From: Haloarcula vallismortis ATCC 29715
Lineage (GTDB): Archaea; Halobacteriota; Halobacteria; Halobacteriales; Haloarculaceae
DNA length: 64,000 nucleotides
Direction of reading: 5' to 3'
Assembly: GCF_000337775.1 (NCBI RefSeq)
Contig: NZ_AOLQ01000055.1
Location: forward strand, 1-64,000
Shown here: positions 47,597-64,000 of the stretch, one piece after another
How positions within the stretch are numbered: the stretch's first letter is position 1
How the letters are laid out: every line of letters begins with the position of its first letter
Notes under the pieces: generated by a model
Database searches by the model: none
What the model was told of the DNA's origin: nothing
The model's input: only the letters and a program-made list of their open reading frames with translations
Program-made: the position numbers and the translations under genes

Positions 47597-49613
47597 CGCT
47601 TCTCACTTCCGTCTCATCCATGTCAACAGCACCGTCCGCGTTGTTGGCCGTCTCCAGTCGCTGTGCAACAAGAGACGGAATCGATACGATACCGCGTGGG
47701 ACGAACAGCACGAATAGAATAAACAGTGTTCCAATGATAAGCCGCCACTGGTCGGTGTACGACGAGAGGAATTCTTCAGCCCCGAAGAAGACACCAGAGC
47801 CAATCATGGGACCGTACAGTGTGCCCATCCCACCGAACAGCGCAATGACAATGACCTCACCAGAGTGGATCCAGTTGAGTGTCTGGTCCGGTGAGATGAT
47901 GACAGTCGACGGACTGACAGCGAGAAGCCCGCCGGCCAGTCCAGCCATACCGCCGCTGATGACAAACGCTCGGCGCTTGTATCTGTTGACGTCGTACCCG
48001 ATGAACTCCGCTCGCTCTTCGCTTTCCCGGATCGACTGCAGGACACTGCCAAACGGCGCGTTCATCATGCGGCGAGCGAACAGGAGCGAGAGCACGGCAA
48101 TTAGCAGGGCGAGATAGTAGAACACGAACTGCTGTCCGACCTCGTACCCCAGAAGGCCGAACTCGATGTTCGAGAGTGCCGCTCCGACGCCGCCGAGTCC
48201 AAGGAACGCTTCGAAGCCGAGCAAGCCGTCGCTCCCGCCGGTGAAGTCGAACTTGAACACGGCACTGTAGAGCAACTCCGCGAACGCCAGCGTAATCATT
48301 GCGAAGTACACGCCGGAGACGCGAATCGAGAGGCTTCCGACGATCCAGGCCAGGATTGCACAGAGGAGAATAGCCCCGAGTAACACGACAAAAACCGACT
48401 GCGAGTAGTGCAACATCACGAGCGCAGCGGTGTATGCACCGACGCCGTAGAACATCGTGTGCCCGAGCGGCACCAGTCCGGCGTATCCCATCACGATATC
48501 CAGACTCAGGGCGAAAATGGCCCAGATGAGGATCTCATTGAGGACGACAAGGTAGTACTGATCGCCCATGAGCAGAATCGCCACTGGCGCGACTGCGAGT
48601 GCGACCACGGCGATTCCGCCGAGCCGGACCCGTGTGCTGTCTGCCAGTATCCCGCCGTAGCCGCCGACGAGAAGCTCACCTTCGCCCTCTGATTCCTCAC
48701 CCCGTGTTCCAAACAGCCCTTGCGGTTTGACGAGCAACACTGCGATCATAAGCAGGTACACGGTCAGCCCTTCGAGATTGGGAACACTCAGCGTTGTATC
48801 ACCGAACGTGGCAAGGACACTCCCACTGTAGGCCCGCATCAGCGTCTGGACGACGCCGACGAGCAATCCACCGAAGACGGCCCCTCTGAAACTACCGAGG
48901 CCACCGAGAACGACAACGACGAACGCCGGAATGATGACGCTGTTTCCCATCCCGGTGTTCACGTTCTGGTAGCCGCCAAGGACGATTCCGGCGACGGCAG
49001 CCAGTGCCGCACCGACGCCAAAGACCAGTGTGTAGTACTGGTCGATATCAATACCGACGTTGCGGACCATCTCACGGTCCTGAGACCCGGCACGGATGAT
49101 CATCCCGTACTTTGTCCGGTTCAGTAGGTACCACGTCACGACTGCAAGCAACGCCGCAAAGGCGATCATGAAGTAGTTGTACACGGACACCTGGACGCCC
49201 AGTATGGACACTGGTTGGCTCAGATACGCGGGGACAGCTAGCTGTCGTTGCTGTGTCCCCCAGATCAGACGGATGCCGTCGTTGATGACGAGTACGAGCC
49301 CGAACGTCAGAAGAATATGATACAGCGGGTCCCGGCCATACAACGGTCGGACAGTCGTTCGCTCGATAGCGGCACCGATGAGACCGACGACGACCGGTGC
49401 GACCACTATTGCGACCCAGAATCCAATCCCAGCACCGAACGGCGCGATGATGCTCAGGGAGAGATACGCACCGAGTGCGAACAGTTCGCCATGGGAGAAG
49501 TTGATTACGTCCATTACGCCGAAGATGACTGACAGCCCGGCGGCTAGCAGGACGTAAACCATCCCCAGGGTGAGGCCATTCAGCAGTTGTTCTATGAAGT
49601 CGGCAGCGACCAT
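47589..49613 (-). CDS. Fused LivH-LivM permease (system 2)
   Basis: A 674-residue protein joining two permeases that are normally separate. Residues about 1-300 are LivH (LLAAGLSVIFGVMDVINFSHGELFALGAY; ending LLVKPQGLFG). After an acidic Gly/Glu linker (ESEGEGELL), residues about 325-650 are LivM (LSLDIVMGYAGLVPLGHTMFYGVGAY; coupling SIRESEERAEFIGYDVNRYK). One chain therefore supplies the complete transmembrane pore. No stop or frameshift lies at the junction, so the fusion is genuine in this sequence. System 1 at 14240-16641 keeps the two proteins apart. Confidence 0.93.
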   Translation of the reverse strand: MVAADFIEQLLNGLTLGMVYVLLAAGLSVIFGVMDVINFSHGELFALGAYLSLSIIAPFGAGIGFWVAIVVAPVVVGLIGAAIERTTVRPLYGRDPLYHILLTFGLVLVINDGIRLIWGTQQRQLAVPAYLSQPVSILGVQVSVYNYFMIAFAALLAVVTWYLLNRTKYGMIIRAGSQDREMVRNVGIDIDQYYTLVFGVGAALAAVAGIVLGGYQNVNTGMGNSVIIPAFVVVVLGGLGSFRGAVFGGLLVGVVQTLMRAYSGSVLATFGDTTLSVPNLEGLTVYLLMIAVLLVKPQGLFGTRGEESEGEGELLVGGYGGILADSTRVRLGGIAVVALAVAPVAILLMGDQYYLVVLNEILIWAIFALSLDIVMGYAGLVPLGHTMFYGVGAYTAALVMLHYSQSVFVVLLGAILLCAILAWIVGSLSIRVSGVYFAMITLAFAELLYSAVFKFDFTGGSDGLLGFEAFLGLGGVGAALSNIEFGLLGYEVGQQFVFYYLALLIAVLSLLFARRMMNAPFGSVLQSIRESEERAEFIGYDVNRYKRRAFVISGGMAGLAGGLLAVSPSTVIISPDQTLNWIHSGEVIVIALFGGMGTLYGPMIGSGVFFGAEEFLSSYTDQWRLIIGTLFILFVLFVPRGIVSIPSLVAQRLETANNADGAVDMDETEVRSDD

Positions 49614-49621
49614 TGTGCTAC

Positions 49622-50869
49622 CTACATCTCACAACCGAGGTCACTGGCCGGTGGCAGCGTCTCCGACCCCGGGACCTGCTCGAGCAATTCGACATCCGCT
49701 GTATCACCGTCGCCCTCGACGAGCTCAGCCATCCACGTTGGGTTCGTGGCCTGATGGTCGCTCTCTCGAAGCGTAATGTCTCCCAGGACTGTCGTGAACG
49801 TGCCGCCCTCAAGTGCGTCTCGGACATCTGCCGGTTCGGTACTCCCAGCTTTGTTCATTCCTTTCGCCATCAACCGCATCGAGTCGTAGCCGACACGGGC
49901 GAAGTTGCCTGGCTCTCTGTCGTTTTCGCTGGCGTAGGCCTCAACGAATGCCGGATTGTCACCGGTGTCGAGCGAGGGGTCGTACCGAGCGCCGCCGAAG
50001 GTACCGACACTGTTTGCGCCGGTTCCAGCACGGACACTCTGGAACGTCTGGGTCGGACCGACAACAGCCATCTGGTCGGTGAGGCCCTGATCCGCGGCCT
50101 GGTTGGTGAAGTTCACCAGGTCACCGCCGGTCATCCCCAGAACGACCACGTCAGCGTCAGAGTTGCTGATCTGCGTGATGAACGAGCCGTAGTTACTGGC
50201 ACCCAGCTCGGACGTTGATGTCCCGACCTCAGTGTAGTCGTCGCTGGCGGCCTCCATGCGCCTGCTGGTGCGGTTGTACACCGAGTCGCCGTACGCGTAG
50301 TCCGCATAGTGGAACCAGACGTTGCTCCCCAGATTATTGACTGAGTAGGCAGATATGGCCTCGGCAATCTGTGCAGTGTTCGTTTCGAAGCGGAACACCC
50401 ACTCGTTGCAGGCAGACCCAGTGATCGGGACTGCTGCGCCGCCGGGGAAGTAGATGTGCTCCGACTGAGCGGCGAAGTCGTTCAGCCCGAGTGCAACGGA
50501 GCTGGAAATCGCACCGAACACGAACTCCGCCCCCTCTTCCTGAACAACGCGCTGTGCCTCGGACTGTGCGGCTCCGGCCTCGGTCTCCGTGTCGCCCGTC
50601 ACCAGCTCGAACTCGAAGTCGTAGTTGTCGTTGTTGTTGATTTCCGTTACGGCGAGCTCAGCCCCAGTTCGCTGGCCCGGCCCGAGAGAGCTGAAGGGGC
50701 CGGTCATCGGGTTCAGGCTCGCAACGGTCACAGCACCGTCGCCGCCTGTGGACCCGCCCTGACAGCCAGCGAGGCCAAGCGCGCCGACCGCGCCGGCGGC
50801 GGCGAGGAACTGTCTCCGTGAACGGTCGATGCCCGCACTACTGTCTGATGAAGTACCTTCGCTCGACAT
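49622..50869 (-). CDS. livJ: Branched-chain-type ABC transporter substrate-binding protein (system 2)
   Basis: A 415-residue type I binding protein. Tat signal SRRQFLAAAG with lipobox LGLAGC at about residue 36, so an anchored lipoprotein. The mature part shows VASLNPMTGPFSSLGPGQRTGAELA and a hinge typical of the LivJ/amide-urea binding family. The start at 50869 is preferred over 50917, which lies at the TATA-like CTTTAATAC (50898-50906, minus strand). First gene of the system 2 operon. Confidence 0.9.
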   Translation of the reverse strand: MSSEGTSSDSSAGIDRSRRQFLAAAGAVGALGLAGCQGGSTGGDGAVTVASLNPMTGPFSSLGPGQRTGAELAVTEINNNDNYDFEFELVTGDTETEAGAAQSEAQRVVQEEGAEFVFGAISSSVALGLNDFAAQSEHIYFPGGAAVPITGSACNEWVFRFETNTAQIAEAISAYSVNNLGSNVWFHYADYAYGDSVYNRTSRRMEAASDDYTEVGTSTSELGASNYGSFITQISNSDADVVVLGMTGGDLVNFTNQAADQGLTDQMAVVGPTQTFQSVRAGTGANSVGTFGGARYDPSLDTGDNPAFVEAYASENDREPGNFARVGYDSMRLMAKGMNKAGSTEPADVRDALEGGTFTTVLGDITLRESDHQATNPTWMAELVEGDGDTADVELLEQVPGSETLPPASDLGCEM

Positions 50870-51000
50870 AGGTTCATTATCTATTGTTAAGCAAATCGTA
50901 TTAAAGCCTTGCCCCATGTCGGCGTGTCGCTCGCTGTCCGCACCCTTCAGGCTCAGCAGTATCGCGTCTCACCGCTTCTGTTCCGTACCCGCCGTCGTGG

Positions 51001-53850
51001 CTAGCGAGCCGTGTCGTCCTGTCTGTACAGCCACGCCAGCGCAGTCCCGAGTACTGCGGACACCCCGGTCAGTGTCGTGAATCCGGGGCCACTGGCGTCC
51101 GTTCCGGTATTCACCGCCGTCGCTGTGTCCGCGCGCTCTGTCTCAGCAGTCGTCGCCGCCGTACTCGTCACGGTGCTCTCGTCTGTCTCAGTGCCCTCAC
51201 TCGTCAGCGTGTCATCGGTGCCACCGTCAGACGGACTCACTGCCCTCATCAGCGTCCGTGTTGCCGTTGTTGCAGACTCGATATCTGCGTCGGCGAACAA
51301 CAACTGTTTGTACTCGAAATTCTCGAACATCGCCAGCTGGTCGTCGTAGTGTTCGCCGGTCGTGTCGTCTGGAGCAACGTAGCCGTCGTTGCCGGGCGGG
51401 AGAATGTTCTCTGCCTGCGGGTCGTCACTAAGCTGGACGAGGTGATTCTCGGTCCCGCGGTTCATCAGCGCCGTGTTCCCCGCGGACGTGACACCGATAG
51501 GCATCCCGAACAGCGCGAGGTTGTCGAACTCGTGAAGTGCTGCCGCACGCCGCCAAGTTCTCGGGTCGCCGTCGTATCGCTCGGCGAGTTCGTCCACGGC
51601 GGTCCGGAACGCGCTGACCAGCGCATCTGTGATGTCGCCGTCAGCATACTCGGCCTGCGTCGACAGTGCTGTCTCCGCTGAGTTGAGGACTCGCATCAGG
51701 GTGCCGCGGCCGTAGTCGTAGCCGAGGAAGTACGACGCCGGACCGTATGCGCTCCCGAACGTCTCGCTGAAGACTTCCTCTAAAATATACGGGAACGTTG
51801 CATCCCAGATGGTGTACCCGGCAGAGTGGCGTCCCTCGTTGTCTTCGCCGTCAGCCTGTGCAAAGTGGTCCCACGAGGCCAGTTCGTCGCGTGCTTGCTG
51901 TTCGGTGTCGGAGAGGTCTGCGTCCGCAAGCGCATCAAGCAAATGGTCTTTGTACCGAATTGAACGCAGATCAGTAAAGGAGATATCGTAGATAACAGTC
52001 TTCAGGAAGTCGTAATCGACTGCCCCCTCCTGTGCTAACCGCTGCTCGACCAGATTGATGATCCGTTGCACGCGGTGGTCGGTCGACCACGAGTAGCTCA
52101 GGTCGCCGTTGTTCCACTCCGGAGCGGGTTTGTTGTTCCACTGGGCCGAGTAGCCCGGGTCGGGGTTGATGGCGTAGGGCACGTCGCCATCAGCCGCACG
52201 CAGGTAATCCTCAGCTGTCAGTTCGTACTGCGTCCCGTCAGCGGGGAGCCGTGTATCCCAGTCGACCGATTCACTGTCCGGATACCGACCCAGATGAACG
52301 TACGCGATGTCACCGTCTTTGTCTGCCCACATGAAATTCAGCGCGTAGTCACAGCGCTGTGCTGACTCCCGGAACTCCTCGGCGTCCGTCGCAAACTGAC
52401 ATTCGTAGTAGGCCCGCCAACAGTTCATATGCCGGCCGGCGTATGACTTCGTCTGTGCCAGTGCTTCCCCGCTGTCAGGATCCCACTGTGTCACAACGCC
52501 GTGGCGAGTGAACCGTTCAGTGTAGGTTACGTCCTCGCCGTCGGCGACAGTGATTGTCCGCTCAGCCGTTTCGACCTCGTACTCCGCACCCTGAAAGGTG
52601 TACGTGTCCGGACCCGACGAGTTGGTCGTGATCGACTCCGTGAACATCTGGATGCAGTTGTCGATCCCGGCGGTCGAGGTCATTGCCCCGTTTCGGTTGT
52701 GGCCGAACATGATGAACGGATACCCGGCAACCGTGACACCAGCGACGTCGAAATCCGGGCCGTGCAGGCTCGCCTCGTACATTATCGAGGGTGTGTTGAA
52801 CCCCATCTGTGGCCCGCCCATCAGTAACGCATCGCCACTGGACGTGATATCACCCTGAACAGCGAGGGCGTTGCTGCCGTATTTGATCGGGAGGCCCAGG
52901 CTATCGAGCCCGGAGGCGAGCGTTCGCATCCGATCCATCTCTGCCTCGTGCATCCCCTCAGCGTCAGTTGGGGGCGCGTAGTCCCCGCCAGTCACAACAT
53001 TGCTCGGTGTTACGGACGGGCCGCTTGCGCCACGGGTCACCCTGCGTGTCTCCTGTCCCCCGGCCACGTCGGGTGTCGGCCCTGTTCCCACATCAGTATA
53101 GGAAGGGGAGTAGCCATCCGACGGCTGGACCGTCGAGGTCGGGCAACCAGGGTCGTCGCCCCACTGCAGGTCCTCGAACAGCTCCATCGCACGCTGTTCA
53201 CTACCGGTCTCCTTCGTGAGTGCGTCGAGAACTGTCGCGCTGAGCGTCTCGAGCTGGAAGCCGCTGAAATACGCCATGCTGGCGACGAACATTCCAGCAG
53301 CGTCTGTCGTAGTAAACTCCTCGGGCTCGAACCCGTGCTCCTGAAACGCCCGGTGGAATTCCAGCTCCTCGCTCTCACGGACCTCGGTAATGTACCGATT
53401 GATGCCGTCTGTAAACGCCTGCAGGACCGCTCGCTGGGCCGCCGTCAGCTGTTCGGCGGCCTGCTCGTCGAGTGACGGCTCGCCGGCCGTGTTGCGCCGC
53501 GCCTCGATATCGAACTGGACCCAGTCAGTGTCCTCATCACCCGCACCGAGGACTGCCGCGACAGTCCCATCATAGTACCGCCGGTACAGTTCTAGCTGAT
53601 AGAGTCGGTCTGCTGCTGTTGCGTATCCGAACCCATAGAACGCCGGCGCGCGGCTGTCAGCGTCACGCGCGTAGATGTGGGGAACGCCGTGGTCGTCCCG
53701 TCGTATCGTAACCGTGACATCGTCTTCCTGCGCGTACGCCAACTCCGTCTCGACGGCACCGATGCCGGTCATGCCGGTCACCGCCGCGCCTGTCTTCAGA
53801 AGCGTTCGTCGCGAGAGATGCTGCCACGAGTGCTGGTGCTGTGCTGGCAT
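51001..53850 (-). CDS. Exported penicillin acylase family amidohydrolase with PGF-CTERM anchor
   Basis: A 949-residue N-terminal nucleophile hydrolase. A Tat signal (SRRTLLKTGA, residues 13-22) exports it. The precursor would be processed into alpha (about 45-300) and beta chains, with the catalytic Ser326 as the new beta N-terminus (YGS-NALAVQGD, matching the SN start of penicillin G acylase beta) and GGPQMGFNTPS following. The far C-terminus has a Thr/Glu-rich linker, PGF, a hydrophobic helix and basic residues, the archaeosortase PGF-CTERM signal. It should cleave N-acyl amides outside the cell. A TATA-like TATTTATTAC (53874-53883, minus) precedes the start. Confidence 0.88.
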   Translation of the reverse strand: MPAQHQHSWQHLSRRTLLKTGAAVTGMTGIGAVETELAYAQEDDVTVTIRRDDHGVPHIYARDADSRAPAFYGFGYATAADRLYQLELYRRYYDGTVAAVLGAGDEDTDWVQFDIEARRNTAGEPSLDEQAAEQLTAAQRAVLQAFTDGINRYITEVRESEELEFHRAFQEHGFEPEEFTTTDAAGMFVASMAYFSGFQLETLSATVLDALTKETGSEQRAMELFEDLQWGDDPGCPTSTVQPSDGYSPSYTDVGTGPTPDVAGGQETRRVTRGASGPSVTPSNVVTGGDYAPPTDAEGMHEAEMDRMRTLASGLDSLGLPIKYGSNALAVQGDITSSGDALLMGGPQMGFNTPSIMYEASLHGPDFDVAGVTVAGYPFIMFGHNRNGAMTSTAGIDNCIQMFTESITTNSSGPDTYTFQGAEYEVETAERTITVADGEDVTYTERFTRHGVVTQWDPDSGEALAQTKSYAGRHMNCWRAYYECQFATDAEEFRESAQRCDYALNFMWADKDGDIAYVHLGRYPDSESVDWDTRLPADGTQYELTAEDYLRAADGDVPYAINPDPGYSAQWNNKPAPEWNNGDLSYSWSTDHRVQRIINLVEQRLAQEGAVDYDFLKTVIYDISFTDLRSIRYKDHLLDALADADLSDTEQQARDELASWDHFAQADGEDNEGRHSAGYTIWDATFPYILEEVFSETFGSAYGPASYFLGYDYGRGTLMRVLNSAETALSTQAEYADGDITDALVSAFRTAVDELAERYDGDPRTWRRAAALHEFDNLALFGMPIGVTSAGNTALMNRGTENHLVQLSDDPQAENILPPGNDGYVAPDDTTGEHYDDQLAMFENFEYKQLLFADADIESATTATRTLMRAVSPSDGGTDDTLTSEGTETDESTVTSTAATTAETERADTATAVNTGTDASGPGFTTLTGVSAVLGTALAWLYRQDDTAR

Positions 53851-53992
53851 CCCGTAGGTGACAGTCTGGATATGTAATAAATATTTGGAGATATTTTTCG
53901 TGAAGGAGGATGTGTGCCTGCGCAAATCCCGTTCTGGGACCCAAGTCACGCTGAACCGGGCAGAATACCGACGCTCAGCACCCGACCCAAGC

Positions 53993-54000
53993 ATATAATT
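53993..54000 (+). promoter_or_regulatory. TATA box of VOC gene
   Basis: ATATAATT about 28 bases before ATG 54024, in the divergent gap shared with the penicillin acylase gene. Confidence 0.45.
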
Positions 54001-54023
54001 GGGAGCCTCCCACAGTCCTCGCT

Positions 54024-54494
54024 ATGTCACAGGAGACACCGGTCCGTGTCGACCATATCGGAATCGCTGTCGAGGACATCGCCGACGCTGAGCCGTTCCT
54101 GTTCACACTCGGCTGTCGGAAACTCATCGAAGAGTCCGTCGACGGCCGGTTTCGCTGGGCGCAGTACGACTTCGACCGGGACGCGTCGCGGCTCGAACTT
54201 ATCGCACCGGAAGCACCGGACACGTTCCTCACATCGTATCTCGACGACCACGGCCCGGGACTACACCATGTCACGCTCGAAGTGGCATCTGTTGATGCAG
54301 TGACAGCGGTCATAGAGCACAATGGATACAGCGTCGTCGACTACCGCGAATATCAGGACTGGACTGAGGCGTTTGTGTCCCCCTCGAACCCGACCGGGGC
54401 GCTGTTTCAACTGTTCGAGTATCACGACAGCTACGATGCTGACCGGCCACCTGCCGGGCAGCTCTACGTCGATGGCAGCCGACTCGATGGCTGA
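54024..54494 (+). CDS. VOC-family protein, methylmalonyl-CoA epimerase-like
   Basis: A 156-residue vicinal oxygen chelate protein of two beta-alpha-beta-beta-beta units. Metal ligands can be placed as His in VDHIGIAVED, His in GLHHVTLEV and Glu in LFQLFEYHD. The arrangement resembles methylmalonyl-CoA epimerase and related dioxygenase-fold isomerases. In this cluster it could also act on an aromatic intermediate; the sequence does not decide. Confidence 0.8.
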   Translation: MSQETPVRVDHIGIAVEDIADAEPFLFTLGCRKLIEESVDGRFRWAQYDFDRDASRLELIAPEAPDTFLTSYLDDHGPGLHHVTLEVASVDAVTAVIEHNGYSVVDYREYQDWTEAFVSPSNPTGALFQLFEYHDSYDADRPPAGQLYVDGSRLDG

Positions 54495-54553
54495 CAGCTG
54501 CAGCGGTTCGCTCTCGGGAAACGCGTCAGGCGAGAACAACAGGTAGTGCGCTC

Positions 54554-56605
54554 TCAGTCGTCGTCAGCAGCCTCGCCCCTGCTTTCCGGCGTCTCGTCGT
54601 CGAACTCATCGCGTGAAGGGACGGTGTGGCCTTCGTTGATAACGTGCTCGGGCGGTACGTCAAGGGCTTCCGACTGGCCGAAGAAGTTGTCAGGGGTTAG
54701 CTTGAGATTGGCCATCTGTACCGGCAACACCGGCCAGTCCTCCGGTCGCGTAACGTGGTTTTTCCCGAGCGTGTACCAGACGACGAGGTCTTCATCGGTG
54801 AGGTCGCGGTCCGCCTCGGTCCAGACCGGGAGCCCCGCGGGGCCTTCAGCCTGATTCGGGTAGTCGCCGGCGGGGAACATCTCGTTCTCGTCGTGTGGGG
54901 TAACCCAGAGATGGTTCTTGACGAAGCCGGAGCGCCGAATGACGCTACTGTCGTCCTGCTGGGCGGCTTTGACGTTCTCGTGGGGTTCGATACGGTACCC
55001 GACCTCGTTGTCCAGGCGGTTCGTCTCGGTTGGGTTCGTGACTTTCCAGTAGCGCCCGTCGAGCGGGTTGATAAGCCGCTGTGCCTCCTGTTCACTCTCT
55101 AACTGACGCTCTTCCGCGTAGAAGGCGTTGCCACCCGGGTTGGGTGTTTCCGCCGATGGGTCCGCGTGCGGACTGAAACCTTGCGGCCCACTCGGCACCG
55201 TCTGGTTCTCGACTTCGTAGACGTTGTTCTCGGTCCCGTCGATGTCGAAGTCCAGTCGGAAATTGAAGAAGTGCTGGTGAATTGGGGCTTTCAGCTGAGG
55301 TGCGACTAGCTCAGAATAGCCTTTGACGTCCTTGTTTTTCGGTGCCGCGGAGACGTTATCGATGCCAGTCAGGCGTACCTGCACCTGCACGGAGCCGTCC
55401 TGATAGAAGTACCAGTAGAAGCCGTAGTCGTAGTTGCCGACAGCGGCGATGAACGAGACGACAAGGCGACGGTTACGGCGGGATTCGGCGCTCTCGGTGC
55501 GCCAGTCGGAACGTTCCCACAGCAAACCGTAGTCTTCTTCGTGCATACAGATAGCGTTGGGGAGGACATTGACAGCACCGTCCATCGTGTTCATCACCGC
55601 ATCGAAGTAATGCATATAGCCCAGACAGTCACACCGCTTCTCCAGGGACTTCGCCATCCGGCCGATGTTGTACTCGCCGGCGTCCATGGCGTTTTTGAAC
55701 CGGTCGTTCTGATCAGGCGTCCCGTATGGGACGGACATTTCAGCAAGCGATGCCCGGTGCAGAATCTTGCGGAACTCCCCGTCATCGTTGTAGCCGACGT
55801 TGTGCAAGACGAGCCCCTCACGCTGGGTCCACCCGACCCGGAACTCCCAGTTTTGCCACTCGACCCTGTGACCGGACACGTCGAACGACGGCCCGTCCGG
55901 CTGCACAACGTCGTACGGTTTCAGGTCGTCCCGCAGGTCAATGTCCGCCTCGCGATATGCCATCTCCTCGGGTGGCAGCGGGTGGTCTTCATCCGGCGGC
56001 CCGTTATCCACGACCTCGACGACAGACATCTCGTCTAAGTCGACGTAGACGTGCAGGCCGGTAACTGGCTTGGCGTAGCCCTCGTCGCCGTCATCCGCAC
56101 TCGGTCGTACGTACGTCAGACCGTGAGCAAGCCGACGGTCGCGGTCGATGTGTTCGGGAATGAAGTCGTACCCGACCGACCACGGGTCAACCATGGCTCG
56201 CTCGGTGTCCACAACACCCCGGTCCTCGAGAGCGGCCTGCCACTCCTCGTGTGCTTTCACCGTCTGTTCACACTCGATGAACTCCTCGATAGCGATGGAG
56301 GGCTGTGCGCCTTCGATGTGCTCGACCGAACTGATCTCCTCAGCTTCGAGCGAAACGGTTGCTTCGTACGTCTTCCGCTCTGGGCTGTCGCGGATGACCG
56401 CGAAGGCCTGCCGTTCGATCTCCCGCCCATGTTCCTCGTGGGCAGTGATGGCGTCTTTCGACGGTTCATCGAGTTCGATTTTGACGATGCGTGCGCCATC
56501 AGTGAACTCACTCGTACTGGTCAGGAGGTCACCTGCGAGTTCAATCTCGTCCGGAGTGAGCGGGTCGAGTGGGTGACCGACCTGTTCTTTGGGTTCGGTT
56601 GCCAT
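54554..56605 (-). CDS. Copper-containing primary amine oxidase
   Basis: A 683-residue copper amine oxidase. Tyr392 in VGNYDYGFYW is the tyrosine converted to the topaquinone cofactor, and Asp308 in MDAGEYNIG is the catalytic base; both lie exactly 10 residues beyond their equivalents in Arthrobacter phenylethylamine oxidase (382 and 298). Copper ligands are HQH in IHQHFFNFRLD and a later His in VTPHDENEMFP. It has no signal peptide, so it is cytoplasmic. It converts primary amines to aldehyde, ammonia and hydrogen peroxide. Similarity to the phenylethylamine enzymes and the nearby paaK support an aromatic amine. Confidence 0.93.
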   Translation of the reverse strand: MATEPKEQVGHPLDPLTPDEIELAGDLLTSTSEFTDGARIVKIELDEPSKDAITAHEEHGREIERQAFAVIRDSPERKTYEATVSLEAEEISSVEHIEGAQPSIAIEEFIECEQTVKAHEEWQAALEDRGVVDTERAMVDPWSVGYDFIPEHIDRDRRLAHGLTYVRPSADDGDEGYAKPVTGLHVYVDLDEMSVVEVVDNGPPDEDHPLPPEEMAYREADIDLRDDLKPYDVVQPDGPSFDVSGHRVEWQNWEFRVGWTQREGLVLHNVGYNDDGEFRKILHRASLAEMSVPYGTPDQNDRFKNAMDAGEYNIGRMAKSLEKRCDCLGYMHYFDAVMNTMDGAVNVLPNAICMHEEDYGLLWERSDWRTESAESRRNRRLVVSFIAAVGNYDYGFYWYFYQDGSVQVQVRLTGIDNVSAAPKNKDVKGYSELVAPQLKAPIHQHFFNFRLDFDIDGTENNVYEVENQTVPSGPQGFSPHADPSAETPNPGGNAFYAEERQLESEQEAQRLINPLDGRYWKVTNPTETNRLDNEVGYRIEPHENVKAAQQDDSSVIRRSGFVKNHLWVTPHDENEMFPAGDYPNQAEGPAGLPVWTEADRDLTDEDLVVWYTLGKNHVTRPEDWPVLPVQMANLKLTPDNFFGQSEALDVPPEHVINEGHTVPSRDEFDDETPESRGEAADDD

Positions 56606-56645
56606 GCCTGTGATTATCTGTGTAACAGAATTATTAGTATTTTAC

Positions 56646-56654
56646 TATTTATAC
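56646..56654 (-). promoter_or_regulatory. TATA box of copper amine oxidase gene
   Basis: On the minus strand the sequence reads GTATAAATA, centred 45 bases upstream of the start at 56605, giving a leader of about 18 bases. Confidence 0.45.
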
Positions 56655-56707
56655 ACAGGTTACACTATGAGGGGTGAGAGTGCTACAGAGGCGAGAACGG
56701 GACTGTC

Positions 56708-57034
56708 TCAGTCGGCTCTCTCGTCTAACTGGACCGTCTCCTCGACAATAAGCCGGGGACCGGCCTCCAGATCGATGAACTCAGCCGCGTCGGCCTGCAC
56801 CCGCTCGGCGAGGTCGGAATCGAACGCCTCGCTGAGTGCGTCCATGTCCTCGAAATAGAGTTCGAGCACGCCGTCGTAGGCCGCTCGCTCCGGGTCTGTC
56901 GGCACAGATGTCACGTAGCGTTGCAGTCCCGGCAGATCCTTCGCCAGCTCCGAGTGGTCGCCTTGCCATCGGTCGGCGAACTCCTCGTGAGTGTAGCCAT
57001 CTCTCCGGACGAGCAAATCGACGATTTTTGTCAT
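56708..57034 (-). CDS. EthD-domain protein
   Basis: A 108-residue single EthD (dimeric alpha/beta barrel) domain, beginning TKIVDLLVRRDGYTHEEFADRW and with the motif ELYFEDMDAL. It is a distant relative of the double EthD protein at 28948. I start at ATG 57034, which opens the first strand; the longer frame to 57091 is not family-like. It lies between the amine oxidase and an IclR gene, so it is probably part of the same catabolic unit. Confidence 0.83.
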   Translation of the reverse strand: MTKIVDLLVRRDGYTHEEFADRWQGDHSELAKDLPGLQRYVTSVPTDPERAAYDGVLELYFEDMDALSEAFDSDLAERVQADAAEFIDLEAGPRLIVEETVQLDERAD

Positions 57035-57146
57035 GCGTACACCACGTCGACTCGGAGTGGCTTTTAGCTGCCGGTCTGACAGGGCCGCCACTGATTCAAG
57101 CTACTCGAACAAAACACTTGTAAGCCGATTAGTCATGTGTGTACGT

Positions 57147-58022: not shown

Positions 58023-58835
58023 TCACTCGCTGGCCCACTTCGGCTCTCTGTCTTCGAGGAACGCGTCGATTCCTTCGTCCTTGTCGCCAGTTGCGAACAG
58101 CTGTGCGAACAGTTCAGCCTCGTACTCGATGCCGGCTTCGAGGTCCATGCGGGAACTGGCACGGACGGCTTTCTTTGCGAGTTCGAGTGCTGCGGGACTT
58201 TTCTCGGCAATCGACGACGCTATGTCGTAGACCCGCTCGTCGAAGGAGTCGTCGTCGTGGACCTCGTCGACGAGGCCGATGTCGGCGGCCTCCGTCGCGT
58301 CGATGAGTTCGCCGGTGAGTATCAGCCGCATCGCGTGGCCTTCCCCGACCAGACGCGGCAATCGCTGTGTGCCGCCACCGCCGGGCATGATGCCGAGGTT
58401 GATCTCCGGCTGGCCGAACTTCGCGTCCGTGTGCGCGATCCGGATGTCGGCCGCCTGAATCAGCTCACAGCCGCCGCCGAGTGCGTGCCCGTTGATGCGA
58501 GCGATGACCGGCATCGGACACTCGTCGACGTGTTCGTAGACCCGGGGCCGCTTACTCGCCTCCCGTTGCTCCAGCATATCCCGCTCGCGGAGTTCTGTCA
58601 CGTCCGCACCGGCAACGAATGCGCCGGTGTCTGCCGCGCCAGTCAACACGACAGCACGGACGCCACTGTCTGGGATTGCGTCGAAGACCTGTTTGAACTC
58701 CGACCGCAACTGGCTGTTGAGCGCGTTTCGGGCCTCCGGCCGGTGCAACTCGACAGTGGCGACGTTCTCGACGCGGTCGCCGACGCTCACCGAAACCGTT
58801 TCACAGTCCGCCGCGGCGTCGGCGAGGTCCGTCAT
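58023..58835 (-). CDS. Enoyl-CoA hydratase/isomerase (crotonase) family
   Basis: A 270-residue crotonase-fold protein. The oxyanion-hole glycine blocks are GAFVAGADVTEL and INGHALGGGCELIQAADIRIA, and the catalytic acidic residues are suggested by the NLGIMPGGGGTQRLPRLVG segment. It adds water across 2-enoyl-CoA or carries out a related step. Its start overlaps the stop of the 3-hydroxyacyl-CoA dehydrogenase gene by four bases, so they form one unit. Confidence 0.92.
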   Translation of the reverse strand: MTDLADAAADCETVSVSVGDRVENVATVELHRPEARNALNSQLRSEFKQVFDAIPDSGVRAVVLTGAADTGAFVAGADVTELRERDMLEQREASKRPRVYEHVDECPMPVIARINGHALGGGCELIQAADIRIAHTDAKFGQPEINLGIMPGGGGTQRLPRLVGEGHAMRLILTGELIDATEAADIGLVDEVHDDDSFDERVYDIASSIAEKSPAALELAKKAVRASSRMDLEAGIEYEAELFAQLFATGDKDEGIDAFLEDREPKWASE

Positions 58836-59719
58836 GCGTCCCCCCAGTCGCCGCTGGTGCCGACGATGTCGCCATCCTCCCAGACGTAGAACCCCTCGCC
58901 GGATTTCCTGCCGAGTTTGCCCGCACGGACCTTCCGTTTCAGAATCTGTGGCGGGCGGAACCGTTCACCGAGTTCCGCACGCAGGTATTCGAGGATGTCG
59001 AGTCGGACGTCGAGACCGACGACGTCGCCGAGTTCGATCGGTCCCATCGGGTGATTGTAGCCGAGTTCCATGGCGGTATCGATGTCCCCCGGTGTTGCAA
59101 CGCCCTCCTGTACCATCCGCATCGCTTCGACGCCCAGCGAGACACCGAGCCGGGAGGAGGCAAAGCCCGGTGCATCAGCCACCTCCACCGGTGTCTTATC
59201 GATCCCGTGCACGAACTCCCGAGCACGCGAGACCGTCTCGGTACTCGTCTGTTCCGCGACGACGATCTCGACGAGTGCCATGATGTGTACCGGATTGAAG
59301 AAGTGGAGGCCGATAGCTCGTTCCGGGTAGTCAAGAGCGCTCGCTATCTCAGTCAGTGACAGCGAGGAGGTGTTTGAAGCGATCAGCGTCGCCGGGTCGA
59401 CGTGGGATTCGACCTCGGTGAGCGTCTCGTGTTTGATCTCCATGTCCTCGGGGACTGCTTCCAGAACAAGATCTGCCCCGGTCACGGCCTCCTCCAGCGA
59501 CGTTGTTCCAGTGAGGCGGTTTAGCGTTGCCTCGGCCGTGGACTCACTCACTTTCTCCCGGGCGATACCCTCTTGCAGATTCGACTCAATGGCGGCCAGG
59601 CCGTCATCGACGATATCCGCCTCAATATCGCGGAGAGAGACGTCGTGACCGGCCATTGCCGACACTTGAGCGATACCGTGGCCCATGGTACCGGCGCCTA
59701 GAATGGCTACGTGCATCAT
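58832..59719 (-). CDS. 3-hydroxyacyl-CoA dehydrogenase
   Basis: A 295-residue NAD-dependent dehydrogenase. The Rossmann motif is ILGAGTMGHGIAQV, the catalytic dyad is His in GLHFFNPVHIMALVEIV with the downstream Glu, and the C-terminal dimer domain (about 190-290) contains AMELGYNHPMGPIELGDVVGLD. It oxidises 3-hydroxyacyl-CoA to 3-ketoacyl-CoA, such as 3-hydroxybutyryl- or 3-hydroxyadipyl-CoA. It is a separate protein and not fused to a hydratase. ATG 59716 is an alternative start. Confidence 0.93.
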   Translation of the reverse strand: MMHVAILGAGTMGHGIAQVSAMAGHDVSLRDIEADIVDDGLAAIESNLQEGIAREKVSESTAEATLNRLTGTTSLEEAVTGADLVLEAVPEDMEIKHETLTEVESHVDPATLIASNTSSLSLTEIASALDYPERAIGLHFFNPVHIMALVEIVVAEQTSTETVSRAREFVHGIDKTPVEVADAPGFASSRLGVSLGVEAMRMVQEGVATPGDIDTAMELGYNHPMGPIELGDVVGLDVRLDILEYLRAELGERFRPPQILKRKVRAGKLGRKSGEGFYVWEDGDIVGTSGDWGDA

Positions 59720-59790: not shown

Positions 59791-59814
59791 CGGCCACGAT
59801 AGGAGTCGGTGAGG

Positions 59815-60957
59815 ATGACTGCTTCCGACTCGCAAGCCGTTGTTGTCGACGCCGTACGGACGCCACAGGTGCCGAAGGATGGCGCACTGGCCGGGACACA
59901 TCCCGAAGACCTCGTCACCACGGTGCTTGCTGCACTCGGTGACCGGACCGGTGTCCCGGCCACCGAGTGGGACGACTTCCGACTCGGGTGTGCAAACCAA
60001 GAGGCAGCGCAGGGCCGAAACCTCGCCCGGCAGTCGATACTCGCCGGCGGGTTCCCTGAAACGGTGCCCGGAGCGACAACAACCCGATTGTGTGGGTCGT
60101 CGCTGACAACACTTGTTGACGCCGCTCGCGCCATCGAGACGGGTGACGGTGAAGTGTATCCGGTCGCCGGCGTCGAGCACATGAGTACCGTCCCCTTCTC
60201 GGACTGGCTCCATCCGGCTATCGAACAGCGGTACGACCCCGACAGGCTGCCGATGGGACAGACGGCCGAAACCATCGCCCGTAACCACGATATCAGCCGT
60301 AAAGCCCAGGATGAGTTCGCGGTGCGGTCACACGAGCGTGCGGTCACGGCGATGGAAGACGGCCGGTTCGACGCAGAGACCGTGCCAGTCCACGCCGACG
60401 AGACAGCGGTCGAGAGCGACAAAACACCGCGAGCAGACACGTCAGCCGAGCAGTTGAGCGAACTCCCGACGGTGTTCCGCGACGACGAGGCAGCGACGGT
60501 CACGCCGGGGAACGCATCACCGCTGACCGACGGCGCGGCCGGGATGCTCGTCACCTCGGCAGCGTACGCAGACCAGCACGGTCTAGACATTCTTGGGCGG
60601 GTCAAGACGCGCGCTGTCGCCGGTGTCGATCCGCTGGTCATGGGTCGGGGACCGATCCCGGCGACGCGTACCGCGCTAGACGACGCCGGCCTGACAATCG
60701 GTGATATCGACCTCGTGGAGCTCAACGAGGCCTTTGCCGCGCAGAGCCTTCACTGTAAGCGCGAGCTGAAGATTCCAGACAGCCGGCTCAACGTCAACGG
60801 TGGGGCCATCGCGCTCGGCCATCCCCTTGGCTGTTCGGGGGCACGAATCACGACAACGTTACTCCACGAGATGCAGCGGCAGGACGCGACGCATGGTCTG
60901 GCGACGATGTGTGTTGGCTTCGGTCAGGGCGTCGCGGTTGTGTTCGAGCGTCTCTGA
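59815..60957 (+). CDS. Acetyl-CoA C-acyltransferase (thiolase)
   Basis: A 380-residue thiolase with the nucleophile Cys93 in [15 protein letters not shown], the His of [16 protein letters not shown] and the second Cys in [14 protein letters not shown]. These three active-site elements are those of degradative thiolases, cleaving 3-ketoacyl-CoA to acetyl-CoA and a shortened acyl-CoA. It diverges from the dehydrogenase/hydratase operon and completes a beta-oxidation-type set. Start at 59815 gives a normal N-terminus ([12 protein letters not shown]). Confidence 0.93.
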
Positions 60958-60966
60958 TCGTGGCGG

Positions 60967-62403
60967 CTACCGGCGCTGGCTGGCGACCTGCGCTTTGAAG
61001 CCGTATCTGATGACCCCCTCCTGCGTGTAGATGCGCCGCGTCGTCAGCACGACAGGTGTGTCGATGGTGACCTCGTCGGTTGTATCGAGCACCTGTGCGG
61101 GGACGCTCACGGTCTGCTCGCCAGATGGGCCATCAAGCGCGACGATAGCGCTATCGAACTCGCCGCTGCTGGACTGCTGCGCGACGAACTCCGGCGGTGC
61201 ACCGCCCTGTTCGATCGTCGTTACTGCCGCAACTGTCCCTGTCCCGGGCAGTTCGACAGCCTCGAAATCACCGGTGCGCTCGTGACAGTCGTTGCAGGCC
61301 CCGGTCGGCGGGAAATTCAACGCGCCACAGGCAACACACCGGCCGGCGACGAGTCGGTGACGTTGCGGAATCGTCCGCTGCCAGGACGGGACACTGACGT
61401 ACGCTCCGCCACCCTCTGGTTCGTCGCGCGTAATCTCGCCACGCCGCCTGAGGTACTCGGCATAGGACAGCGAGACAGCACCATCAAGCGCAGTTTCGAC
61501 CGGAACAGGACCAGTGGCGACGAACAGCGTCGCACTTGCTCCGCTTCCGTACGCGGCGATCAACACACGCTCGGCGTCGTCCGCGAACGCTGTTGCCGCT
61601 CCAAGGAATGCACTTGCCGCGCCGGTATCCCCGAGCGTACTGACTGTGTCCGCGGCAGCGATGGTCTCTGCGTCGACCCCGAGTGCACCAGTCGCCCGAT
61701 AGGGGAGTTTTCCGTCCGGAGACTGAACTGCTGCCGCATCGAGGTCATCTATCGGCACGGCCAGTCGTTCCGCCGCACTGCCGAGCGTGGTGATAAACGC
61801 CTCACGGTCGTACTGCGTCACGCCAAGACCGGTCGTCCGGTCGTCCCCGCCCGTTCTGAACCGTGTTCCGGGGTACGCCTCCGTGTGTGACGCCCGGTCA
61901 ACGACGGCTCCGGGACCGTCATCATCGACAACGAGCGCAACACTCCCGGCACCGGCGGCGTGTTCGACCTCGCTGTCAGGATCGCCCCGCGGACAGTCGC
62001 TGACGATGACGAGACCGATGCCGTCTCCGAACGGGCCGCCGTCCATGGTTGCGTCCAGTGCTTGCGCCCCGGTGTGTGTGGAGCCGGTCATCGTCTGGGT
62101 CTTGGCATCATCAGGGACGTTGAGAATACTGCAGAGTCGCGCCGCAAGGTCCTCTTCCGCCATCGGCGGTGTCGTCGTCGCAAAGGCCAGGTGCGCGACA
62201 TCCGTGCCGGACGCGTCGGCCGCAGTTAGCGCACGACGGGCTGCTTCGACACCCATCGTGACCGCGTCCTCGTCGGCGTCGGGGACCGCCTTCGCATCGA
62301 TTCCCGCTGCATCGAATCGGCCCCAAGCAGCTTCGAACTCCGCGGCGTCGATCCGTAGGCGAGGCGCGTACGCACCGATGGCCGCGAGCCCCGACGCGGT
62401 CAT
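60967..62403 (-). CDS. HMG-CoA synthase-like protein fused to zinc-ribbon OB (DUF35) domain
   Basis: A 478-residue fusion. Residues about 1-330 have the HMG-CoA synthase/ketoacyl synthase III fold (GLAAIGAYAPRLRI; LAFATTTPP). Residues about 340-478 are a DUF35 domain: a rubredoxin-like zinc ribbon (CVACG ... CNDCHE) and an OB fold. The catalytic cysteine expected near residue 109-111 is missing: the segment reads MTGSTHTGAQAL. It may be a non-catalytic partner that binds acyl-CoA, because DUF35 proteins bridge thiolase and HMG-CoA synthase in archaea. It overlaps the next thiolase gene by four bases. Confidence 0.85.
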   Translation of the reverse strand: MTASGLAAIGAYAPRLRIDAAEFEAAWGRFDAAGIDAKAVPDADEDAVTMGVEAARRALTAADASGTDVAHLAFATTTPPMAEEDLAARLCSILNVPDDAKTQTMTGSTHTGAQALDATMDGGPFGDGIGLVIVSDCPRGDPDSEVEHAAGAGSVALVVDDDGPGAVVDRASHTEAYPGTRFRTGGDDRTTGLGVTQYDREAFITTLGSAAERLAVPIDDLDAAAVQSPDGKLPYRATGALGVDAETIAAADTVSTLGDTGAASAFLGAATAFADDAERVLIAAYGSGASATLFVATGPVPVETALDGAVSLSYAEYLRRRGEITRDEPEGGGAYVSVPSWQRTIPQRHRLVAGRCVACGALNFPPTGACNDCHERTGDFEAVELPGTGTVAAVTTIEQGGAPPEFVAQQSSSGEFDSAIVALDGPSGEQTVSVPAQVLDTTDEVTIDTPVVLTTRRIYTQEGVIRYGFKAQVASQRR

Positions 62404-63572
62404 CGTGCGGCCTCCCGTTCGAGGATATGAACAACGGCACTACCGCCGCTTCCCCCCACATTGTGAGTCAGCCCGTACTTCGGGGCCGCTAGCTGTCGGT
62501 CCGCGGCGCGACCGGTGAGCTGTTTGAACGCCTCGACAATCTGGCCGGCCCCAGTTGCGCCGATAGGGTGACCCTTCGATTTCAGTCCGCCGGAGAGATT
62601 GACCGGCATGGCTCCGTCAGCTTCGGTCGTTCCCTGTTCCAGCAACTGTGGGGCCTCGCCGCGGTCACAGAAGCCGAGGTCCTCGTAGGCAAGCAGTTCG
62701 GCAATCGTGAAGCAGTCGTGTACCTCAGCGAAGTCGAGGTCGTCTGGGACGACGCCAGCACGATCATAGGCCGTGGTTGCAGCGGCTTCCGATGCAGAGA
62801 CCGCGGTGTAGCTGTCTCGCTGGAAGAGCCCGACCCGGTCGCTGGCTGCGCCGACTCCGGCGACCCGAATTGGGTCGTCAGTGTACTGCTCAACGACATC
62901 CGCACTGGCGACGAGAGCAACGGCTGCGCCGTCGGAGGTTGGACAGCAGTGATAGAGGTTCAACGGGTCCGCGACAACGGGTGCGCTGGCGGCGTCTTCT
63001 AAGGAGCACTCAAAGCCCAGATGGGCCTTCGGATTTTTTGCGCCGTTCCGGTGGTTCTTGACCGCTACCATCGAGAGATGCTCCTCGCTTGCCTCGTATT
63101 CCCGTAGATACGCGCTTGCCATCTGTGCGTAGACGCCCGAAAACGTCGTCCCGGTCAGCCGTTCCCACTCTGTTTCGCCGGAGACGCCGAGCCAGTACTT
63201 CGTCACGTCGCTGCTCATGTCTGTCATGACTTCGACGCCGCCAGCCAGCGCCACGTCGGCCATCCCGCTTTTGACGGCCTGCACTGCCTGACGGACGGCG
63301 TAGCCAGACGCGGCACAGGCATTTTCGACGCGCACGCTGGGGATGCCGTGCAGTCCGGCGTGTTCGGTTGCTGCCGGTCCCGAGAGACCGAGTTGTCGAC
63401 CGCCCACACCGAGTGAGCCGACGACCGCCTCATCTATCGCATCCGTATCGATGCCGTGGTCGACACTGTCGACGGCTTCGCTGACTGCGTGGTCGAACAG
63501 TGATCTATAACTCTCTTCGGGCATCGAGCCAAACGGCGTTTGCCCGGCGCCGATGATATACGCGTCCCGCAT
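62400..63572 (-). CDS. SCP-x type thiolase
   Basis: A 390-residue thiolase-superfamily protein of the archaeal acetyl-CoA acetyltransferase/SCP-x group. Active-site elements are VENACAASGYAVRQAV (Cys), GHPIGATGAGQIVE (His) and THNVGGSGGSAVVHIL where degradative thiolases have a second Cys. Such thiolases work in a complex with DUF35 proteins. The stop overlaps the start of the HMG-CoA synthase-like/DUF35 gene, so the two products probably assemble. Start at 63572 opens the family MRDAYIIGAGQTPFG. Confidence 0.9.
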   Translation of the reverse strand: MRDAYIIGAGQTPFGSMPEESYRSLFDHAVSEAVDSVDHGIDTDAIDEAVVGSLGVGGRQLGLSGPAATEHAGLHGIPSVRVENACAASGYAVRQAVQAVKSGMADVALAGGVEVMTDMSSDVTKYWLGVSGETEWERLTGTTFSGVYAQMASAYLREYEASEEHLSMVAVKNHRNGAKNPKAHLGFECSLEDAASAPVVADPLNLYHCCPTSDGAAVALVASADVVEQYTDDPIRVAGVGAASDRVGLFQRDSYTAVSASEAAATTAYDRAGVVPDDLDFAEVHDCFTIAELLAYEDLGFCDRGEAPQLLEQGTTEADGAMPVNLSGGLKSKGHPIGATGAGQIVEAFKQLTGRAADRQLAAPKYGLTHNVGGSGGSAVVHILEREAAR

Positions 63573-63704
63573 ACATAGAACTCTGAAGGTACTGAAAAAT
63601 AGCTTTGCATCACTTGCCGATAGTCGCACAGCACGTACGCAACTGGCAGCGGAGTGACCAATCCCAAACCATTTTATCACTCTCATTCCATTCTATCATT
63701 GACG

Positions 63705-64000
63705 ATGGTGTACAAGCCACTGGAGGCGTCTGACCGTACGGAGCTGCGTGCGTTACAAACTGACCGATTACAGGGGATTGTCGCACACGCCTACGAGAAC
63801 GTCCCGTTTTACCGGGAAAAGCTCGACGAGGCGGGCGTCTCGCCCGACGATATCCAGAGCATCGACGACATCGCAAAGTTGCCGATGACGACAAAAGAGG
63901 ATTTCCGCGACGAGTACCCCGACGGCCTGTTCGCCGTAGACGATGAAAACGTTGCCCGCATCCACGCGTCATCTGGGACGACCGGCAAACCCAAAATCGT
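63705..64000 (+). CDS. paaK: Phenylacetate-CoA ligase, 5' part
   Basis: The first about 98 codons of an AMP-forming ligase, cut by the window edge. The translated start (LRALQTDRLQGIVAHAYENV, then PFYREKLDEAGV, DDIAKLPMTTKEDFRD and the AMP-binding ASSGTTGKPK) is the N-terminus of phenylacetate-CoA ligase. It activates phenylacetate, or a related aryl acetate, with CoA and ATP. It diverges from the thiolase operon and suggests that a phenylacetate degradation (paa) cluster continues to the right. Confidence 0.88.
   Translation, partial: MVYKPLEASDRTELRALQTDRLQGIVAHAYENVPFYREKLDEAGVSPDDIQSIDDIAKLPMTTKEDFRDEYPDGLFAVDDENVARIHASSGTTGKPKI

Follow-up and report, generated by a model that had tools for sequence, protein, structure and literature searches.

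Why should a thiolase keep a catalytically dead partner? The question is raised by two genes of Haloarcula vallismortis ATCC 29715 that lie near one end of the stretch of DNA analysed here, 64,000 nucleotides from a contig of 94 kb (NZ_AOLQ01000055.1, positions 1 to 64,000; assembly GCF_000337775.1), referred to below as the window. One gene encodes a fused protein in which a domain resembling 3-hydroxy-3-methylglutaryl-CoA (HMG-CoA) synthase is followed by DUF35, and the other encodes a thiolase of the SCP2 type. From comparison of their sequences with those of relatives, the pair probably constitutes one degradative enzyme, in which an active 3-oxoacyl-CoA thiolase is joined by a non-catalytic subunit, itself a fusion of a synthase fold and DUF35. 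The fused protein is almost certainly not an HMG-CoA synthase; it is very likely the partner of the thiolase; and it is likely that at this locus the pair functions in the breakdown of phenylacetate. The fused protein is best regarded as a scaffold within a thiolase complex, because the catalytic residues of the synthase have been lost and because the gene is encoded together with an intact thiolase.

Fold and active-site residues of the fused protein

An initial annotation of the window had stated that the synthase-like and DUF35 parts form one chain, and this is borne out by the open reading frame of 478 codons and by domain and structure matches. Among solved structures the protein matches the synthase chain 6esq_I (1.4e-19), PhlA (5m3k_A, 3e-11) and the DUF35 chain 6esq_E (1.8e-9), and the Pfam family zf-ChsH2 is matched at residues 345-376. 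The zinc-ribbon Cys4 pattern of DUF35 is present in all 92 fused relatives examined. The nearest named relatives are those of four Haloarcula species, whose fused proteins are 92-93% identical to this one. A structure prediction built on an alignment of 60 relatives gave a confident model (predicted local distance difference test score 92.0, predicted template-modelling score 0.93), and its closest neighbour in a fold search was 6esq_I (Z 43.0, root-mean-square deviation 2.0 over 322 residues, 24% identity), so that the model has the fold of an archaeal HMG-CoA synthase. PhlA came next (9skh_A, Z 42.2; 5mg5_A, Z 41.0), followed by HMG-CoA synthases, MucABC and FabH; these rows are dominated by the synthase domain and carry no separate evidence on the DUF35 half.

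The catalytic residues were read by alignment to the HMG-CoA synthase of 6ESQ, whose Glu82 and Cys114 are named in PMC6392133 and whose His238 was assigned from our own alignment. In the window these positions are occupied by Thr77, Thr109 and Gln227. The reading of the Cys position as STHTG in the initial annotation is thus correct, since Thr109, within GSTHTG, aligns with Cys114. That annotation had also proposed to follow the loss of Cys across orthologues. Here 108 distinct relatives were drawn from 175 partly overlapping stretches (numbered with L below), using only tblastn matches above 70 bits. None of the 108 retains Cys, none retains Glu and only 6 retain His, so the loss is not confined to Cys. 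The Cys place is filled by Thr in 98 and Ala in 6, with Leu, Pro, Gly and Ser in one each; the Glu place by Thr in 93, Ser in 12 and other residues in 3; and the His place, apart from the 6, by Gln in 78, Thr in 14 and others in 10. Weaker, divergent relatives outside this set (L063, L065-L067, L069-L071, L073 and L074) likewise have no Cys; the alignment in which these were read did not include L043 and L061, where no single frame covered the protein. In contrast, Glu, Cys and His are each kept in 20 of 20 canonical archaeal complexes. These controls come from 19 families of the phylum and were chosen among strong matches to the 6ESQ synthase, so that they lean toward the canonical form; weaker candidates (about 1e-77 in family f16) were left out.

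The identification of the fused protein as a working HMG-CoA synthase of isoprenoid synthesis has some basis. The fold is of that type, there are NCBIfam matches below the cut-offs, at least three plasmid records (H27, H30 and H32) bear the name "3-hydroxy-3-methylglutaryl CoA synthase", pksG is also used in automatic annotation, and a role in membrane biogenesis has been suggested in the accessible text of PMC10694973. All three residues are nevertheless changed here, and the archaeal family PRK04262 scores 137.3 bits (residues 4-322) against a cut-off of 244, so that it is not called, while TIGR00748 scores 81.9 against 353.35. In addition, the neighbouring genes are degradative, and the H. 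vallismortis genome carries elsewhere a separate HMG-CoA synthase of the halobacterial type (NF041302, 867.1 bits, cut-off 800) with Glu, Cys and His in place. We regard this identification as ruled out by the residues, the cut-offs and the separate synthase, with only the slightest chance left to it. As an aside, one genome of the same order (G164:C5, family f5) contains at L225 a canonical archaeal set of synthase, thiolase and DUF35 genes with the full triad, where the genome of the window has the NF041302 type instead.

The partner thiolase and the constraint on the pair

The thiolase retains the residues expected of an active enzyme, Cys86, His285 and His335, and the same three are kept in 105 of 105 thiolases of the relatives; these were read from 107 (L050 was too short and L137 too long), and the roles of the residues were assigned by analogy. 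The longest listed start of its reading frame is at 63686. The thiolase overlaps the fused gene by four bases, as the initial annotation had noted, and this arrangement is general. A thiolase on the same strand adjoins the synthase-like gene in 107 of 108 relatives, the sole miss (L158) being at the end of a contig. The thiolase comes first in 100 of the 108, and 97 of these 100 have ATGA or GTGA at the thiolase stop, a pattern that fits a following gene whose start lies within the overlap, as judged from these bases and not from each individual start. Fusion to DUF35, judged by length, is found in 94; of the remaining 14, 7 are split versions with the same gene order and 7 are divergent forms in which the synthase-like gene is first. 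None of these features is an accident of one genome: gene fusion, overlap and loss of the catalytic residues all recur in relatives across Halobacteria. In the plasmid collection, the 32 records that contain a thiolase at least 60% identical to that of the window are the same 32 that top the list for the synthase-like protein, and the next plasmid thiolase falls to 44.9% identity. At the window locus the thiolase, the synthase fold and DUF35 are thus encoded together.

Two observations on thiolases elsewhere may be recorded. In three of the 20 control thiolases (L206-L225) Asp occupies the alignment column of the nucleophilic Cys; either these sequences are misaligned or the complexes concerned contain an inactive thiolase. 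Also, L050, L063-L076 and L110-L114 contain divergent Cys-less synthase-like genes followed by thiolases at 40-46% identity in other neighbourhoods, and at some of the divergent Cys-less loci acyl-CoA dehydrogenase, hydratase or dehydrogenase matches lie nearby.

The module is widespread. Of 391 genomes sampled from the class Halobacteria, 248 gave a match at E 1e-10 or better; all but 6 of the 248 reach 1e-50 or better, one of the 6 being G164 with its canonical complex. In the family sample the figure was 81 of 146. In a midpoint-rooted tree of 51 rows, which included 21 of 61 fused and 10 of 20 canonical sequences, a branch with support 100/99 separates 38 rows (35 Cys-less haloarchaeal and 3 bacterial fused forms) from the canonical synthases, with PhlA on the canonical side, the root being a midpoint root only. 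The fused protein of L172 groups with the split forms (93/75). The bacterial forms, from Rhodococcus and two Novosphingobium plasmids, have Ala, Leu or Gln at the Cys place. These pairs, annotated as "OB-fold domain-containing protein" and "acetyl-CoA acetyltransferase", resemble the window in their fused architecture, thiolase overlap and altered Cys and Glu places. They differ in that the fused gene precedes the thiolase, in their low identity to the window protein (25% over the full length in Rhodococcus; 36-40% in Novosphingobium, over the first third only) and in their neighbours, which include genes for a ring dioxygenase, a short-chain dehydrogenase/reductase, P450 and lipid transfer.

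The three parts of the module are not equally conserved. Pairwise identities were computed from 92 of the 94 fused genes, excluding L137, whose thiolase frame is too long, and L158, which has no thiolase; removal of near copies left 61 sets. The control comprised 19 of the 20 canonical complexes, excluding L223, where no DUF35 was found. In the 61 sets the synthase-like domain had a median identity of 51.7%, DUF35 one of 58.2% and the thiolase one of 73.4%, and the corresponding control values were 67.3, 58.9 and 68.5. When the two parts were compared pair by pair, the identity of the synthase-like domain was below that of the thiolase in 1830 of 1830 pairs of the fused sets and in 95 of 171 control pairs. 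It is therefore the least conserved of the three parts, unlike in the controls, and because of this difference it seems to have lost a constraint that its canonical relative retains. The gene is nevertheless maintained by selection. In all 4 comparisons with named Haloarcula species, each of the two parts of the fused gene gave a ratio of nonsynonymous to synonymous substitution rates of 0.08-0.12, indicating purifying selection, and a pseudogene or local decay is ruled out by this ratio of about 0.1 and by the wide conservation.

The phenylacetate context and the possible role of the dead pocket

The genes around the pair (Table 1) belong to a phenylacetate (paa) cluster, which continues beyond the window on the same contig with paaI, maoC, an aldehyde dehydrogenase gene and paaDCBA, named from annotated orthologous clusters. 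Genes of the paa type surround the pair in Haloarcula, Haloferax and Halorubrum.

Table 1. Positions of the features discussed in the text, numbered from the first nucleotide of the window.
Feature	Position	Strand	Basis
Fused HMG-CoA-synthase-like/DUF35 protein, 478 aa, one chain	60967..62403	-	Open reading frame, domain matches, model
HMG-CoA-synthase-like (thiolase-fold) domain, residues 1-322, triad lost	61438..62403	-	Structure and sequence matches, alignment
DUF35, residues 338-473: rubredoxin-like zinc ribbon (Cys356/359/370/373) and OB-type part	60985..61392	-	
Thr77, at the position of Glu82 of 6ESQ synthase	62173..62175	-	Alignment
GSTHTG loop, residues 107-112; Thr109 replaces Cys114 of 6ESQ synthase	62068..62085	-	Alignment
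Gln227, at the position of His238 of 6ESQ synthase	61723..61725	-	Alignment
SCP2-type thiolase, 390 aa; Cys86, His285, His335 kept	62400..63572	-	Open reading frame, domain matches
ATGA, the four bases shared by the end of the thiolase gene and the beginning of the fused gene	62400..62403	-	
Classical FadA/PaaJ-type thiolase of the cluster	59809..60957	+	Domain matches
3-Hydroxyacyl-CoA dehydrogenase (PaaH-like)	58832..59719	-	Domain matches
Enoyl-CoA hydratase (PaaF-like)	58023..58835	-	Domain matches
Phenylacetate-CoA ligase (PaaK), start	63705..64000	+	Open reading frame; name from annotated orthologous clusters

The bacterial PaaJ is described as performing both thiolytic steps of the pathway (PMC9493321, accessible part). 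Archaeal pathways with a phenylacetate ligase are reported, in the portion of PMC13186573 at hand, only from Halobacteria and in partial form. Clear paa genes lie beside the module in 19 stretches, and a PaaJ-type match is present in 13 of these and missing in 6. The 19 were obtained from 23 stretches by removing L101, L102 and L172, whose proteins are only paa-like (27-38% identity), and L132, from the same organism as L122; species may be repeated within them, and since they were found through the module, clusters that do not contain it are invisible. For 5 of the PaaJ-less stretches the whole genomes were searched, and the best relatives of the PaaJ-type thiolase there, at 47-50%, resemble the general thiolases of the window's genome; in the sixth case, Haloferax alexandrinus, there was no PaaJ-type match on the plasmid, which was all that was searched. 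Because a PaaJ-type gene is missing from some paa stretches, these data suggest that the thiolase always present in the phenylacetate pathway of haloarchaea is that of the module and not PaaJ. A second thiolase is thereby indicated for this pathway, in some of whose clusters no PaaJ-type gene is nearby.

Expression data for such a cluster appear to exist under another name. Silver is reported to induce in Haloferax alexandrinus a run of genes given as ECH (enoyl-CoA hydratase), paaH, "pksG HMG-CoA synthase", "paaJ" and paaK, for which membrane biogenesis was proposed (PMC10694973, 2023, as far as accessible). A second strain of this species has the same gene order, with Thr/Thr/Thr at the three catalytic positions, and for these reasons the "pksG" of that report is very probably the pseudoenzyme described here. 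The present results speak against treating the protein as an "HMG-CoA synthase", as a physiology paper has very probably already done.

Other features of the clusters are as follows. The segment from 46113 to 57091 of the window, with L041 and L042 beyond it, resembles an island for the conversion of phenylethylamine or phenylacetamide to phenylacetate, with genes for a copper amine oxidase, a branched-chain/urea-type ATP-binding cassette transporter, an EthD protein, an IclR regulator and a protein of 997 aa whose Haloarcula sinaiiensis counterpart is annotated as penicillin acylase. The counterpart cluster of H. sinaiiensis contains a second PaaK and, in the corresponding stretch, no amine oxidase. 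The protein annotated as "PaaE" in haloarchaea has a length of only about 55 aa (L123:8577-8744; L121:1121-1288; L226:1675-1842). The bacterial epoxidase reductase is far larger, and the small size of "PaaE" raises doubt about the electron donor of the epoxidase in haloarchaea. In L101 and L102 (about 17.6-18.9 kb) and at L172:2539-4825 the module is near the remote paa-like proteins mentioned above, and UbiD decarboxylases in L172 hint at another aromatic pathway.

In the proposed mechanism, DUF35 would join the thiolase to the synthase-like part as it does in the archaeal acetyl-CoA acetyltransferase/HMG-CoA synthase (ACAT/HMGCS) complex and in PhlACB; the fusion, the overlap and this precedent make a physical complex probable. 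The dead domain would act as a scaffold that lines a shared cavity for CoA and substrate and performs no chemistry, and thiolysis would be carried out by Cys86 of the thiolase. At the window locus the substrates would most likely be 3-oxo-5,6-dehydrosuberyl-CoA and/or 3-oxoadipyl-CoA of the phenylacetate pathway. Copies outside paa clusters adjoin varied genes, often of beta-oxidation, and most copies are outside recognisable paa clusters; the module is therefore probably a general one, which in other haloarchaea would serve other pathways resembling beta-oxidation.

Several observations weigh against this interpretation. Conservation is higher in the 35 residues of the former active-site loops than elsewhere in the domain (the commonest residue has a mean frequency of 0.85 vs 0.62), and a purely structural scaffold would not need conserved loops; the control values are 0.90 in the loops and 0.76 elsewhere, from sets of different depth (60 rows here, 21 in the control). 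A PaaJ-type thiolase adjoins the pair here, as in 13 of the 19 paa stretches overall, which makes the assignment of a substrate to the pair less certain. Of the 84 stretches of at least 17 kb, only 21 have a PaaA, PaaC or PaaD match and 63 have none. Finally, the genomes that lack the PaaJ type still contain general FadA-like thiolases. With respect to the loops, buried loops are often conserved, and here they may be maintained for the sake of folding, or else the pocket may have retained a binding function.

The conserved loops also bear on whether the synthase-like domain has gained another reaction, for example as a hydrolase or isomerase that works ahead of the thiolase, through a pocket formed by Thr77, Thr109, Gln227, Asp259 and Arg236. 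Asp259 and Arg236 are invariant in the 60 rows, in which Thr109 is kept in 57 and Gln227 and Thr77 in 50 each. Against a new reaction, the residue at the Cys place varies within the clade as well as in the three bacterial forms, and only PhlC residues are described as contacting the substrate in PhlACB (PMC6392133, accessible part). Because of this variation Thr109 cannot be a general, clade-wide replacement nucleophile and is ruled out in that role. The initial annotation had considered that a different residue might act as nucleophile, and no replacement is seen at the Cys place, where T, A, L, P, G or S and, in one bacterial relative, Q are found. Its alternative of a scaffold or a new reaction is thus decided unequally: the scaffold is favoured by the lost residues and the intact thiolase, and the new reaction, disfavoured by the variable Cys place, appears improbable.

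A different use of the dead pocket can be put forward tentatively, as a doubtful extension of the scaffold. The pocket may be a working binding site in which Thr, Thr, Gln, Asp and Arg hold an acyl-CoA or the freed CoA arm beside the thiolase, so that one complex makes both thiolytic cuts of the phenylacetate pathway, C8 to C6 and later C6 to C4, with partial channelling. If this were true, an old active site would have become a specificity or waiting pocket of a catabolic thiolase in about six in ten of the sampled Halobacteria genomes, with bacterial parallels.

Comparison with known systems

Neither the surrounding phenylacetate genes, nor the extent of the family, nor the PhlA/PhlACB precedent was part of the initial annotation. 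Comparison with a control defines an extensive clade of pseudoenzymes of the synthase fold whose genes accompany thiolase genes. Among the matches listed in a search of open-licence PMC articles, no title or abstract dealt with the haloarchaeal protein as a Cys-less thiolase partner, which is weak evidence of absence.

The archaeal ACAT/HMGCS/DUF35 complex (6ESQ) shares with the window pair a thiolase, a synthase-fold partner and DUF35, and it provides both the best structural match of the synthase-like domain and the nearest solved thiolase by sequence. In canonical complexes Glu, Cys and His are retained and the synthase gene precedes that of the thiolase, both in 20 of 20 cases, and a separate DUF35 gene was found downstream in 19 of 20. 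In the window, however, the thiolase is first, the synthase-like part is fused to DUF35, the residues are lost and the context is catabolic.

A thiolase-fold enzyme is also combined with DUF35 in the degradation of aromatic compounds and steroids, by the benzoylsuccinyl-CoA thiolase BbsAB (7PXP) and the aldolase-DUF35 systems Sal/Ltp2; in the accessible portion of PMC12329534, DUF35 is presented as a bridge in such complexes and no synthase-like subunit is mentioned for these enzymes.

The haloarchaeal beta-ketothiolases PhaA and BktB raise the question of direction, since the module might run forward and form 3-oxoacyl-CoA, for example for polyhydroxyalkanoate. In Haloferax mediterranei these enzymes reportedly consist, from work by Hou in 2013, of a thiolase and a small OB-fold second subunit that has no synthase-like domain; the second subunit of the window would differ from this layout in that it also carries a synthase-like domain, about 320 residues long. 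Besides the thiolase of the module, the H. mediterranei plasmid encodes two others, one beside a stand-alone gene for a zinc-ribbon OB-fold protein and one beside a small hypothetical gene; these two are 37% and 44% identical to the window thiolase, and one of them may be BktB. The ketothiolases of haloarchaeal poly(3-hydroxybutyrate-co-3-hydroxyvalerate) synthesis are likewise described as two co-transcribed genes each (PMC8387396 and PMC6631277, accessible parts). A forward direction is nonetheless unlikely, since no pha-named gene occurs in the four annotated gene neighbourhoods where the module and paa genes lie together and since the module is reported to be induced together with paa genes in Haloferax alexandrinus (PMC10694973, same portion).

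A parallel to a dead partner is provided by the multicomponent acyltransferases PhlACB/PpATase and CsATase (5M3K, 5MG5, 9SKH), in which an HMGS-like subunit without Cys and Glu is combined with DUF35 and an active thiolase-fold PhlC, as it would be here. The likeness to MucABC (9VBO, 9VBT) is by structure match only (chain Z 37.5). The shared three parts, the changed Cys and Glu places and a fold match of Z 41 could be taken to mean that the pair is itself an acyltransferase of this type, carrying out C-acylation and not degradative thiolysis. This is very unlikely. Among solved structures the window thiolase is nearest to 6esq_A (5.4e-85), followed by 7yvy_A (9.5e-80) and BbsB (7pxp_C, 2.5e-51), with PhlC far behind (2.1e-27); the neighbouring genes are those of catabolic beta-oxidation; and PhlA lies outside the clade in the tree. 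PhlACB differs further in having three separate chains and in its reaction, phenol C-acylation. In the available text of PMC6392133, the HMGS-like PhlA has Gly115 and Cys83 in place of the catalytic Cys and Glu, and a functional PhlACB enzyme requires expression of the whole operon (also PMC12955522, in part). PhlA, as described there, is a published precedent for a Cys-less partner of the synthase fold.

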